Shown here: in pieces, positions 32,554 through 37,361 of the stretch
Position numbering within the stretch: position 1 is the stretch's first letter
Layout of the letters: the number at the start of each line of letters is the position of its first letter
Assembly (NCBI GenBank): GCA_947173945.1
Contig: CAMWGV010000019.1
Location: forward strand, 1-45,171
Direction: 5' to 3'
DNA length: 45,171 nt
Origin: an uncultured Lachnospiraceae bacterium
GTDB taxonomy: Bacteria; Bacillota; Clostridia; Lachnospirales; Lachnospiraceae
Position numbers and translations under genes: made by a program
The notes under the pieces: model-generated
Told to the model about the DNA's origin: nothing
The model's database searches: none
What the model saw: only the letters and a program-made list of their open reading frames with translations

Positions 32554-33708
32554 ATGAGCGTTAAATATTATAGAAATATTTTATTTGCAATGCTGTTTTC
32601 AATATGCAGTTTAATATATGTTTCAGTATATAACGATGTGAGTTCCATTTATGGTAATACGGCAGTAAGTGGTAATGGGAGTATTTCCATAAATGAAGGC
32701 GGTTCGGATATGAATCCGATTATCGCAGCTGAGTCTACGGAAGGTGTCAGTGAAGAAAACACTGATGAGAAGGATAATACTGTCCATATGGTTATGCCAT
32801 CGGGAAAACCGATTGGAATATATGTGAAAACAAAGGGCGTTATGGTAATAGGAACAGGAGAAATACAGACGCTGCAGGGTAATAATGTCTCACCATGCCG
32901 TAATCTTATTGAAACCGGTGATTATATCATGGAAATAAATGGTACAGAGGTAAACGACAAAGAAGGACTTATAAATGCCATAGAGGAATGCCGGGATGAG
33001 GAGATTATAATGAAGGTAAACAGAAAGGGAAGCGAAATAGATATTGCAGTCACACCGATTCTGTCATCAAACAAAAAATATATGTTAGGGTTATGGGTAA
33101 AGGATGATATAGCAGGAATAGGAACATTGACATATATTGATGAAAATGGATTTGGGGCATTAGGACACAGTATAAATGATAATGATACAGGCGAACTTTT
33201 TGATATTTCAGACGGAGCAATTTATGAGACGGAGCTTGTTAATATCGTAAAATCGGATGGTGAACATCCGGGACGGCTAGAGGGTATCATAGATTATTCT
33301 TCATCTAACGTAATAGGTAGAGTAAAAAATAATACCCTGTATGGCATAAAGGGTTATATGACAAAAAATGCTTATGAGAATCTTGCATCGGGAGAATGGA
33401 TGCCGATTGCGCAGAAGGAGGAGGCACATTTAGGTGATGCACTCATTTTGTCATCGGTTTCCGGAAAGCCAGAGTATTACGAAATTGAAATAACAGGTGT
33501 GGATGTAAGTGACAGCAGCGGTAATAAAGGTCTGGAAATAGTAATTAATGATTCAAGGCTGTTACAGCTTACAAGTGGAATTGTACAGGGTATGAGTGGA
33601 ACGCCAATTATACAGGATGGAAAGCTGTTAGGGGCGGTAACACATGTATTTTTGAGGGATTCCGCAAGGGGGTATGGAACCTTTGTTGAAAACATTATGA
33701 GTAACTGA
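32554..33708 (+). CDS. spoIVB: SpoIVB serine peptidase (S55)
   Basis: 384 residues: an N-terminal membrane anchor (about 8-26), a linker, a PDZ domain (about 80-165) and the S55 peptidase domain with H205 in GALGHSI and S348 in GMSGTPI. In Bacillus SpoIVB is made in the forespore and cleaves SpoIVFA to trigger sigma-K activation. Position after recN is the usual one. No convincing sigma-G promoter was found by eye. Confidence 0.95.
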   Translation: MSVKYYRNILFAMLFSICSLIYVSVYNDVSSIYGNTAVSGNGSISINEGGSDMNPIIAAESTEGVSEENTDEKDNTVHMVMPSGKPIGIYVKTKGVMVIGTGEIQTLQGNNVSPCRNLIETGDYIMEINGTEVNDKEGLINAIEECRDEEIIMKVNRKGSEIDIAVTPILSSNKKYMLGLWVKDDIAGIGTLTYIDENGFGALGHSINDNDTGELFDISDGAIYETELVNIVKSDGEHPGRLEGIIDYSSSNVIGRVKNNTLYGIKGYMTKNAYENLASGEWMPIAQKEEAHLGDALILSSVSGKPEYYEIEITGVDVSDSSGNKGLEIVINDSRLLQLTSGIVQGMSGTPIIQDGKLLGAVTHVFLRDSARGYGTFVENIMSN

Positions 33709-35510: not shown

Positions 35511-35559
35511 AGAGGAAATTGCTGATAGAAAATGACTGAAAATGTTGTCATATACTAGT

Positions 35560-35574
35560 GTCGCAACTTGCGAC
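35560..35574. promoter_or_regulatory. Inverted repeat upstream of the first spo0A promoter
   Basis: GTCGCAA-C-TTGCGAC, a perfect 7+1+7 dyad located 11 bp before the -35. Each arm with its flanking T (TGTCGCA) differs by one base from the 0A box TGTCGAA. It could bind a Spo0A dimer or another activator. Confidence 0.5.
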
Positions 35575-35584
35575 CTCTTTGGTC

Positions 35585-35613
35585 TTGTTCCTCAAATATT
35601 GCAATTATATAAT
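35585..35613 (+). promoter_or_regulatory. Sigma-A promoter for the first spo0A paralogue
   Basis: TTGTTC (35585-35590) and TATAAT (35608-35613), 17-bp spacer; predicted start near 35620. Confidence 0.6.
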
Positions 35614-35654: not shown

Positions 35655-36443
35655 ATGAGGATAAAGGTTCTTGTCATTAAGCATGATTTGAGAAGTGCGA
35701 ATGAATTAAAAAGAATACTTGAGACCAAAAGCGAGTTTTGTGTATGCGGTTGTATGACAGATGGACAGGAGGGCATGAAAGCGATTGCTAAAAACAATCC
35801 TGATGTTGTTATCATTGATTTACTTCTTCCAAATATGGATGGAATTGCAATTATGGATGAGTTAAATAAAGATGGTGACAGAGGATTGAAATTTATTGTA
35901 AAAGCAAATGCAAATCAGATTAAATTTGTTGAAAGGGCATATAAAGGACAGCTAAATAATGTATACATAAGTATTATAGATGAATCGGCAAATGATATTG
36001 ATATATGTCAGGAGGTGGTAAATACAAGTAAGACAAAGCTCAAGGGAATATATGTTTATGAATCATCCGATGAGGCATATGAAAGTGCTCTTGAGTTAAA
36101 TGTAACGGAAATAATACACGAGATAGGAGTTCCTGCTCATATTAAGGGGTACCAGTATTTAAGAAGTTCAATTATTATGGCTGTAAAGGATATGGATGTA
36201 CTTAATTCAATTACAAAGCAGCTTTATCCATCAATAGCAAAGGAACATGGGACAACCTCATCAAGAGTGGAAAGAGCGATACGCCATGCAATAGAAGTCG
36301 CATGGGGCAGAGGAAAGACAGATACTATAAATGAGCTGTTTGGATATACGATGAGTCAGGGGAAGCTTAAGCCTACAAACTCAGAATTTATAGCACTTAT
36401 TGCGGATAAAATAAGATTGGACAATAAGATGAAAAGTGCATAA
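35655..36443 (+). CDS. Spo0A paralogue 1, degenerate receiver
   Basis: 262 residues. The C-terminal half (from about 150) is a full Spo0A DNA-binding domain, including [12 protein letters not shown], the recognition helix [18 protein letters not shown] and [14 protein letters not shown]. The receiver keeps the phosphoacceptor-position Asp (D55 in [12 protein letters not shown]) but the metal-binding acidic pair reads K9-H10, the switch Thr position is K83 and the conserved Lys position is I107. It is therefore unlikely to be phosphorylated normally. It may act constitutively, heterodimerise with the second Spo0A, or compete for 0A boxes. It has its own promoter and an AGAGGGAAGG site. Confidence 0.9.
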
Positions 36444-36489
36444 GTCGAAGGCTGTCGAACTCTTGTTGCAAAATCATTGGAATTCGACT
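36443..36489. promoter_or_regulatory. Cluster of 0A boxes before the second spo0A
   Basis: A perfect 0A box TGTCGAA is at 36453-36459, a near match AGTCGAA at 36443-36449, and an inverted near match TTCGACT at 36483-36489 that touches the -35. This suggests Spo0A autoregulation, as known for spo0A in Bacillus. Confidence 0.65.
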
Positions 36490-36517
36490 TGACAATACAA
36501 AAATGAAATTATATTAT
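36489..36517 (+). promoter_or_regulatory. Sigma-A promoter for the second spo0A
   Basis: A consensus -35 TTGACA (36489-36494) and -10 TATTAT (36512-36517) with a 17-bp spacer; predicted start near 36524, 46 nt before the ATG. Confidence 0.78.
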
Positions 36518-36569
36518 CTCCATATGGTTATCTTGATTGGTATGGAGAAATAGCTAAAGGGGAGATTAT

Positions 36570-37361
36570 ATGACTGAACAAAAGGTTCGGGTTGTAATTG
36601 CAGATGCAGGCTATGAAATCCTATCAAGGCAGTTACAAGTTCAAAATGGTGATGCAATCGATGTTGTAAAAACGACTGAAGATGGCGCAGAGGTTTATGA
36701 TATTGTTTCCAATTTTAAACCTGATGTGTTGCTGATAGATGTCTTTATAGCAAACATAGATGGCTTAGAGGTCGTTGAACAAATTCGTGCGAATGAAGAA
36801 CTTGCAGGAACAAGTATTATTTTTATAACCAACGTAGGCTCTCCAAGAATTATAAGTATGGCTTTTAATCTTGGTGCAGACTATTATATCATGAAACCAT
36901 GCAATCCTGATATTTTATGCAAGAGAATAATGCAGATAGCGGGCCTTGCAAAAAGCTCCGGAACTGAGGATGTCGAGGAGGAAATAAAGGGAGGGCATGA
37001 GATAAGTACAATAGAAAACGATGTTACAGAAATCATAAGAGAAATAGGCATACCGGCACATATAAAAGGATATCAGTACATACGTGAAGGTATAATAATG
37101 TCTATAAATGACATGAACATGCTCAATTATATTACAAAGCTTCTATATCCAAGCATTGCAAAGAAGTATAAAACCACATCAAGCAGTGTGGAACGAGCAA
37201 TAAGACATGCTATAGAGGTAGCTTGGAGTAGGGGAAAGATTGAGGTTATAGAAGAAATGTTTGGCTATACAGTTAGTGCGGGAAAGGGAAAACCAACAAA
37301 TTCCGAATTTATAGCACTGATAGCTGATAAGCTACGCATAGAATACAAAATGCACGCGTGA
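36570..37361 (+). CDS. spo0A: Spo0A, stage 0 sporulation master regulator (paralogue 2)
   Basis: 263 residues. The receiver has phosphoacceptor D57, T87 (FITNVG) and K109 (IMKPCN). The acidic pair is D12-A13, so one metal-binding Asp is missing, and the usual Pro after the phosphoacceptor (MPxxDG) is Ala (IANIDG). The output domain is complete: [32 protein letters not shown] and [16 protein letters not shown]. It is roughly 70% identical to paralogue 1 in the output domain by eye but little alike in the receiver. It is the better candidate for the phosphorelay-responsive Spo0A. The next gene's likely start lies 18 bp after its stop. Confidence 0.93.

Follow-up and report, generated by a model that had tools for sequence, protein, structure and literature searches.

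The window, by which we mean the whole stretch of 45,171 nucleotides that we analyzed from an uncultured Lachnospiraceae bacterium, carries two spo0A genes on the plus strand. The first (copy 1, or A; positions 35655-36443) encodes a Spo0A of 262 amino acids with a pseudo-receiver and with Arg211 in the recognition helix. The second (copy 2, or B; 36570-37361) encodes a Spo0A paralogue of 263 amino acids with a non-acidic residue at position 11 and with Ser211. The two open reading frames are 126 bp apart. Upstream of the pair lie a RecN-like gene (a name assigned from its sequence, without a family-library search), spoIVB (32554-33708, plus strand), a pyridoxamine kinase gene, and a shikimate- or homoserine-kinase-like gene. 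The SpoIVB peptidase scored above the cutoff of PF05580 and reached 287.6 bits with TIGR02860, below the cutoff of 305.25.

An earlier note on this DNA had described two complete Spo0A-type proteins encoded back to back, with very similar output domains, and both statements held. The proteins passed the NCBIfam Spo0A equivalog TIGR02875 (cutoff, 200 bits) at 245.6 bits for copy 1 and 279.1 bits for copy 2, matched the Spo0A_C model PF08769 over its full length (149.8 and 151.6 bits; positions 1 to 104 of 104), and also matched the receiver model PF00072. The output domains are identical at 81 of 115 positions (70.4%), versus 24 of 121 (19.8%) in the receivers. No further Spo0A_C match was found in the window's own genome (2.84 Mb, 108 contigs).

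We found both copies near each other on one contig in 27 of the 37 genomes of the genus, a recurrence that neither chance nor an assembly error would explain. In one of these (G032), a contig end cuts copy 1. In G033 copy 2 lies at a contig end, the sole Spo0A_C protein of G016 is short and divergent, and the other eight genomes have none. The titled relatives are metagenome-assembled genomes, mostly labeled Lachnospiraceae, and many come from rumen or gut samples. By protein match, spoIVB lies upstream within the flank examined at 15 of 22 genus loci (L062 to L083). Six genus genomes, namely, G005, G006, G008, G011, G014, and G016, encode a third Spo0A_C protein, which is divergent and scores about 105 bits in frames of 128 to 154 codons; that of G016 (L030, G016:C203:7734-8042) has no receiver.

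Both receivers lack active-site residues

In the alignment, the copy 1 receiver of the window has Lys-His in place of the acidic pair, keeps the phosphoacceptor Asp, and lacks the conserved Lys, as the earlier note had read it. The further claim that the switch Thr is Lys stood less well: the residue at this position hinges on a one-residue gap and varies within the genus. The reading of copy 2 was borne out, with Asp-Ala as the acidic pair, IANIDG replacing MPxxDG, and Asp, Thr, and Lys present. Neither copy has the canonical five-residue receiver site. Passages from Bourret et al. (2025; PMC12632262) class any receiver as a pseudo-receiver if one or more of five active-site residues is missing; they also state that metal is bound directly by the second acidic residue. 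Under this published definition both window copies are pseudo-receivers, and the window's genome has no canonical Spo0A receiver. Both proteins are Spo0A by descent and domains and, as judged by their aligned sites, not canonical phosphoacceptors.

The same pattern recurs across the genus. The copy 1 acidic pair is Lys-His in 23 of the 25 rows covering the site and Arg-His in the other 2; in one further genome, with a longer frame (L076), it is Asn-His. Asp56 is present in all 26 copy 1 rows, and there is no Lys at 108. Among the residues invariant in 20 copy 1 rows are DG36-37, LLPNxDG, F80, N85, Q88, and F91. For wider counts of active-site residues, identical proteins were entered once. Among the 42 distinct Ser211 (copy 2) proteins, all have Asp56, 40 have the Lys, 39 have Thr/Ser, and 37 have Asp10; none has an acidic residue at position 11. 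Of 57 Arg211 proteins that have no Ser211 partner at the same locus, 53 have all five residues intact. Two of the four exceptions (L076 and L150) are copy 1 proteins, and their partner rows had been removed as duplicates or were absent from the set; the other two (L086 and L109) are distant rows labeled Bacilli.

An AlphaFold2 model of copy 1 built from 15 rows (mean pLDDT, 83.1; pTM, 0.53) has a (beta-alpha)5 receiver fold, with five strands and five helices in residues 3 to 126 (block pLDDT, 79 to 95) and a less certain additional strand at 131 to 135. With this model, Foldseek matched the output domain to 1fc3 and 1lq1 and the receiver to response-regulator receivers, including the Spo0A receiver 5wq0.

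Elsewhere in the family, the best Spo0A of eight genomes from other genera (L043, L044, L046, L047, L050, L051, L056, and L061) is short, with frames of 180 to 223 codons. These proteins have a normal output domain and a receiver remnant, and they lack the phosphoacceptor Asp region; that of L044 resembles an internal deletion. They may represent a second, independent receiver loss in the family, where other short frames were also seen. In one subclade (L027, L028, and L029), the copy 2 linker is about 50 residues longer; the two aligned linkers (L028 and L029) have a high content of Asp and Glu.

Copy 2 differs at position 211 of the recognition helix

Position 211 follows the numbering of B. 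subtilis Spo0A. The earlier note had called both recognition helices intact. This is true of copy 1, which has Arg211, but not of copy 2: Ser211 was found in 28 of 28 genus second copies (sorted by position alone) and in 17 of 17 second open reading frames of other two-copy loci (some genomes included twice). The first copies have Arg211 in 27 of 27 cases in the genus and in 17 of 17 at the other two-copy loci. Single Spo0A proteins in the set also have Arg211, apart from two distant ones (L084 and L085) with Lys. By a criterion of our own choosing, in which Arg211 is a family-defining feature of Spo0A, copy 1 has the feature and copy 2 does not. A role for Arg211 in DNA contact was not found in the Spo0A literature passages searched. 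The change to Ser211 suggests that the two copies are perhaps not identical in how they read DNA.

The two genes have distinct control regions

Before copy 1 lies a conserved element (35546-35572, plus strand) with two TGTC motifs 13 bp apart, the second followed by AACTTGCG; in the window, TGTCGCAACTTGCG occupies 35559-35572. A predicted sigma-A-like promoter read from the sequence (TTGTTC, 17 bp, TATAAT) follows at 35585-35613, plus strand. The whole arrangement of TGTC, 13 bp, TGTC with AACTTGCG, and sigma-A-like promoter is strongly conserved across 21 aligned genus loci. The motif TGTCnnAACTTGCG occurred in 15 of 15 distinct genus copy 1 upstreams counted and in 0 of 48 single spo0A upstreams, a count that leaves out sequences shorter than 150 nt (copy 1 and singles) and L084, L085, L086, L092, L099, and L109; these exclusions also took out L147 and L148, the latter of which carries AACTTGCG. 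The other tandem copy 1 genes make up 11 rows from 10 genomes, one entered twice (L116 and L150); 4 of these rows contain ACTTGCG, and 2 contain the full element.

We then scanned whole genomes of the genus for TGTCnnAACTTGCG. Of the 37 genomes, 26 have it at the spo0A promoter; in G000 it occurs only once, at spo0A. Extra sites were found in G024 (one), G027 (two), and G028 (two, in a genome without Spo0A); the reversed control pattern gave 4 sites. As the sites are almost confined to the spo0A promoter, we ruled out a regulon-wide box. The element may be the site of a different regulator. It is partly palindromic in some genomes (CGCAA-C-TTGCG; 35559-35573 in the window), and a simple palindrome search missed most copies.

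The gap between the genes has its own signals. A cluster of 0A-box-like motifs, recognized by motif only, lies at 36443-36489 (plus strand) and consists of AGTCGAA at 36443-36449 (one mismatch), an exact TGTCGAA at 36453-36459, and TTCGACT at 36483-36489 (one mismatch, on the other strand). A predicted sigma-A-like promoter (TTGACA, 17 bp, TATTAT) is at 36489-36517, plus strand. By the pattern used, a sigma-A-like promoter was present in 16 of 27 genus gaps, and copy 2 likely has its own promoter, as read from these motifs. An exact 0A core was present in 15 of the 27 gaps, the window's included, compared with a mean of 0.29 and a maximum of 4 in 500 shuffles; the gaps are related sequences, so this comparison does not count independent events. 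The core is missing from the other 12 genus gaps and from all 14 upstreams of copy 2 in other genera. It is present in 31 of 48 single spo0A upstreams. For C. difficile Spo0A, passages of PMC3485338 describe binding to the same box and possible autoregulation.

Copy 2 is a divergent paralogue within the family

We ran a profile of the copy 2 output domain over 397 family genomes from 334 genera; 254 genomes matched at 1e-30. Among the matches listed, 11 genomes scored at least 212 bits and the next score was 209. Reading of loci added G251, G390, G147, and G196 as copy 2 carriers. The copy 2 protein is thus present in at least 15 of the 334 genera, in tandem with copy 1 in 13 of them and apart from it in G374 and G196. 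When 291 genomes sampled from the class were scanned, the highest copy 2 score outside the window's own genome was 194.7 among the matches listed, lower than that of every confirmed copy 2 in the family scan; a very diverged copy 2 could escape both scans.

In a first tree of 58 rows, copy 2 formed one clade (support, 100/99), as did copy 1 (97/83), and the degenerate copy 1 proteins were nested inside copy 1 (100/99). A second tree with more genera again recovered copy 2 as one clade (100/99). In this tree the 19 tandem copy 1 rows grouped at 89/99 and 13 degenerate copy 1 rows at 93/76; copy 1 as a whole was not one clade, as two non-adjacent canonical copies sat among the single Spo0A proteins. 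L153 and L157 were excluded from the second tree, its bootstrap had not settled, and its deepest fork stayed open. Taken alone, then, these trees do not decide which copy is nearer to single Spo0A. In the second tree, each copy has a long branch leading to the window's clade (0.65 and 0.49), which fits joint remodeling without proving it.

The residues add an order of events. Copy 2 is altered in every genus seen and copy 1 in some only. All five residues are present in copy 1 of five tandem genera (L117, L119, L121, L122, and L148), which are 5 of the 37 distinct Arg211 proteins that have a Ser211 partner, and likewise in copy 1 of the two non-tandem genera. Copy 1 of L147 lacks the Thr, and the loss goes further in the rest of the tandem genera, including that of the window. 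The idea that copy 1 always lacks the acidic pair therefore holds for the genus members seen and fails for the family, where copy 1 is intact in those five tandem genera. Together, position 11 and Ser211 mark copy 2 as a divergent paralogue and a single orthologue group. Because basal genera have intact receivers, Arg211, and shorter branches in copy 1, we infer that copy 1 represents the older, canonical spo0A lineage, whose receiver would have been lost later on the branch that includes the window's genus. The two paralogues would best be explained by an ancient duplication in this family.

Both receivers are under purifying selection

We estimated dN/dS by the Nei-Gojobori method from close pairs (dS, 0.02 to 1.5) in six chosen groups, 20 genomes in total. 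The receiver values were 0.117 for copy 1 (21 pairs) and 0.095 for copy 2 (17 pairs), and those of the output domains were 0.014 (13 pairs) and 0.022 (20 pairs), respectively. Thus, both receivers are under purifying selection. The constraint on the copy 1 receiver is about equal to that on the copy 2 receiver, which argues that the former serves some use. That a two-Spo0A arrangement with a pseudo-receiver in copy 1 is conserved is supported by its presence in 27 of 37 genomes and by dN/dS values in keeping with its maintenance by selection.

Sporulation genes accompany the pair in most of the genus

SpoIVA is present in 31 of the 37 genus genomes. Two genomes that are 99 and 100% complete (G015 and G028) have neither Spo0A nor SpoIVA. 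SpoIVA occurs without the pair in G001, G017, and G034 (71 to 87% complete) and in G016, and the pair occurs without SpoIVA in G032; these five genomes are drafts of 71 to 91% completeness. Pair-bearing genomes have strong matches to SpoIIE and SpoIIAA (the latter missing in G002), those in G015 and G028 are weak, and the curated cutoff of the SpoIIE or SpoIIAA model is passed by none of the 37. An exact 0A core (TGTCGAA/TTCGACA) precedes spoIIE at 3 of 30 genus loci and spoIIAA at 1 of 30, where several spoIIAA starts are mis-set. Given how rare these cores are, the sequence gives no support to direct control of spoIIE or spoIIAA through the usual 0A box. At the spoIIAA loci (L191 to L211; 23 of 28 loci aligned), most have a terminator-like hairpin past the upstream gene, and the spoIIAA operon may therefore be controlled by read-through.

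Discussion

We tentatively favor a reading in which a phosphorylation-independent Spo0A (A) works with a modified partner (B), and we give it slightly less than an even chance. A would bind 0A boxes without phosphorylation, and its own promoter, which carries the conserved TGTCnnAACTTGCG element, would set its level. B mostly retains Asp10, Asp56, Thr/Ser, and Lys and is without the direct metal ligand, so it might give a weak or modified signal input. It would partner A on shared or shifted sites, probably through receiver-receiver contact by analogy with BldM-WhiI. Where a 0A box precedes the B promoter, as in 15 of 27 genus gaps, B would probably also be controlled by A, either alone or together with B. 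Weighing against this reading are the scarcity of 0A cores before spoIIE and spoIIAA, the copy 2 upstreams that have no 0A box, the separated copies in G374 and G196, the failure of copy 1 to form one clade in the second tree, and the genomes in which SpoIVA and the pair do not go together. Passages of PMC12632262 describe GlnR and RamR, in which the Asp serves dimer formation, not phosphorylation. By analogy, a dimer role offers one reason why copy 1 could keep its Asp. The presence of Asp56 in nearly all copy 1 proteins also leaves room for residual phosphorylation.

The earlier note had proposed a division of labor in which copy 1 would set basal occupancy, or would antagonize or heterodimerize with a regulated copy 2. 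One version has copy 1 acting as an antagonist or as a constitutive basal Spo0A, with copy 2 regulated by phosphorylation and each protein forming separate homodimers. We consider this somewhat unlikely. The retention of most active-site residues in the 42 Ser211 proteins, the reliable retention of Asp alone in genus copy 1, and the likely separate promoters all agree with it. Yet the residue that, according to the same passages of PMC12632262, binds metal directly is absent from copy 2 in 42 of 42 proteins, and Ser211 suggests that the copies may read DNA differently. The long copy 2 clade, position 11, and Ser211 rule out copy 2 as an ordinary Spo0A, so the assumption that it is the ordinary regulated one had to give way to that of a divergent paralogue.

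Alternatively, neither copy might be phosphorylated, and control might have shifted to how the two genes are transcribed or to the binding of a ligand or partner protein by the pseudo-receivers. This we regard as unlikely. It would agree with the published definition, by which both window receivers are pseudo-receivers, with the conserved promoter element of copy 1, and with the eight other family Spo0A proteins without a complete receiver. It does not fit well with Asp56 in 42 of 42 and Lys in 40 of 42 Ser211 proteins or with Asp56 in 26 of 26 genus copy 1 rows, a retention that seems to go beyond structural need alone.

It is very unlikely, in our judgment, that the pair no longer governs sporulation and serves another program such as growth phase, surface, or metabolism. 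Although exact 0A cores are scarce before spoIIE and spoIIAA and some draft genomes have SpoIVA without the pair, the two near-complete genomes that lack the pair also lack SpoIVA, and spoIVB is upstream at 15 of 22 genus loci. Finally, that copy 1 is a sporadic duplicate on its way out is scarcely credible even though its receiver evolves the fastest of the four domains and most of its active-site residues are gone, since 27 of 37 genomes keep copy 1, its receiver and output domain have dN/dS values of 0.117 and 0.014, and the degenerate state is common to several genera; conservation and dN/dS led us to reject it.

How does a phosphorylation-independent Spo0A with a modified partner compare with known systems? 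The canonical Spo0A of B. subtilis and of most family genomes that have one is the same two-domain protein, passing TIGR02875 and PF08769, and the window pair lies downstream of recN-spoIVB. The window differs in that it has two copies, neither with the five-residue site, and in that copy 2 has Ser211. A second spo0A in one genome is, as such, already in print: passages of PMC4890492 and PMC3804516 report one in Clostridium thermocellum (Clo1313_0637/Cthe_3087). Unlike those of the window, these two genes appear not to be in tandem, judging from the far-apart locus tags in those passages.

A precedent for the mechanism is BldM-WhiI of Streptomyces, two atypical response regulators in one developmental program with a homodimer regulon and a heterodimer regulon, as described in passages of PMC4125116. 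These proteins are neither Spo0A nor tandem Spo0A paralogues, and the heterodimer was demonstrated there, whereas for the Spo0A pair it is proposed. CmrR-CmrT of Clostridioides difficile are a co-encoded typical and pseudo-receiver regulator, and in CmrT, as in copy 2, the second acidic residue is replaced (PMC12548384, in part). They differ in belonging to the OmpR family and not being a sporulation master regulator, and CmrT has Glu at the Asp site. The same passages describe the would-be active site of CmrT as held by direct contacts and call the relevance of a CmrR-CmrT heterodimer unclear. The window copies resemble the pseudo-receiver class of Bourret et al. (2025; PMC12632262, in part) in missing at least one of five active-site residues; a text search of the main text of that article found no mention of Spo0A. 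Among the openly licensed articles listed by full-text searches, we recognized none on a tandem Spo0A pair or on a Spo0A with a pseudo-receiver.

Passages of Davidson et al. (2018; PMC6136694) describe Spo0 control by phosphorelay or by direct phosphorylation, with Spo0A conserved in both. Because neither copy in the window's genus has a complete phosphate-receiving site, our data suggest that sporulation entry there is governed by a mechanism that has yet to be described. One specific form would be entry without phosphorylated Spo0A through a mixed-dimer switch, in which the pseudo-receiver protein A and a B with altered DNA recognition would control each other's promoters, A via the 0A box before B and B via TGTCnnAACTTGCG before A. 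We think this improbable in its full form. If true, it would be a third Spo0 control architecture beside the phosphorelay and direct phosphorylation. Here Spo0A itself appears remodeled, and living genera show intact and degenerate stages, so the order of events is testable. The pair would also provide a natural series for asking what role a receiver domain has once usual phosphate reception is lost, and it bears on how gut bacteria may decide to form spores with only part of the usual phosphate switch in place.
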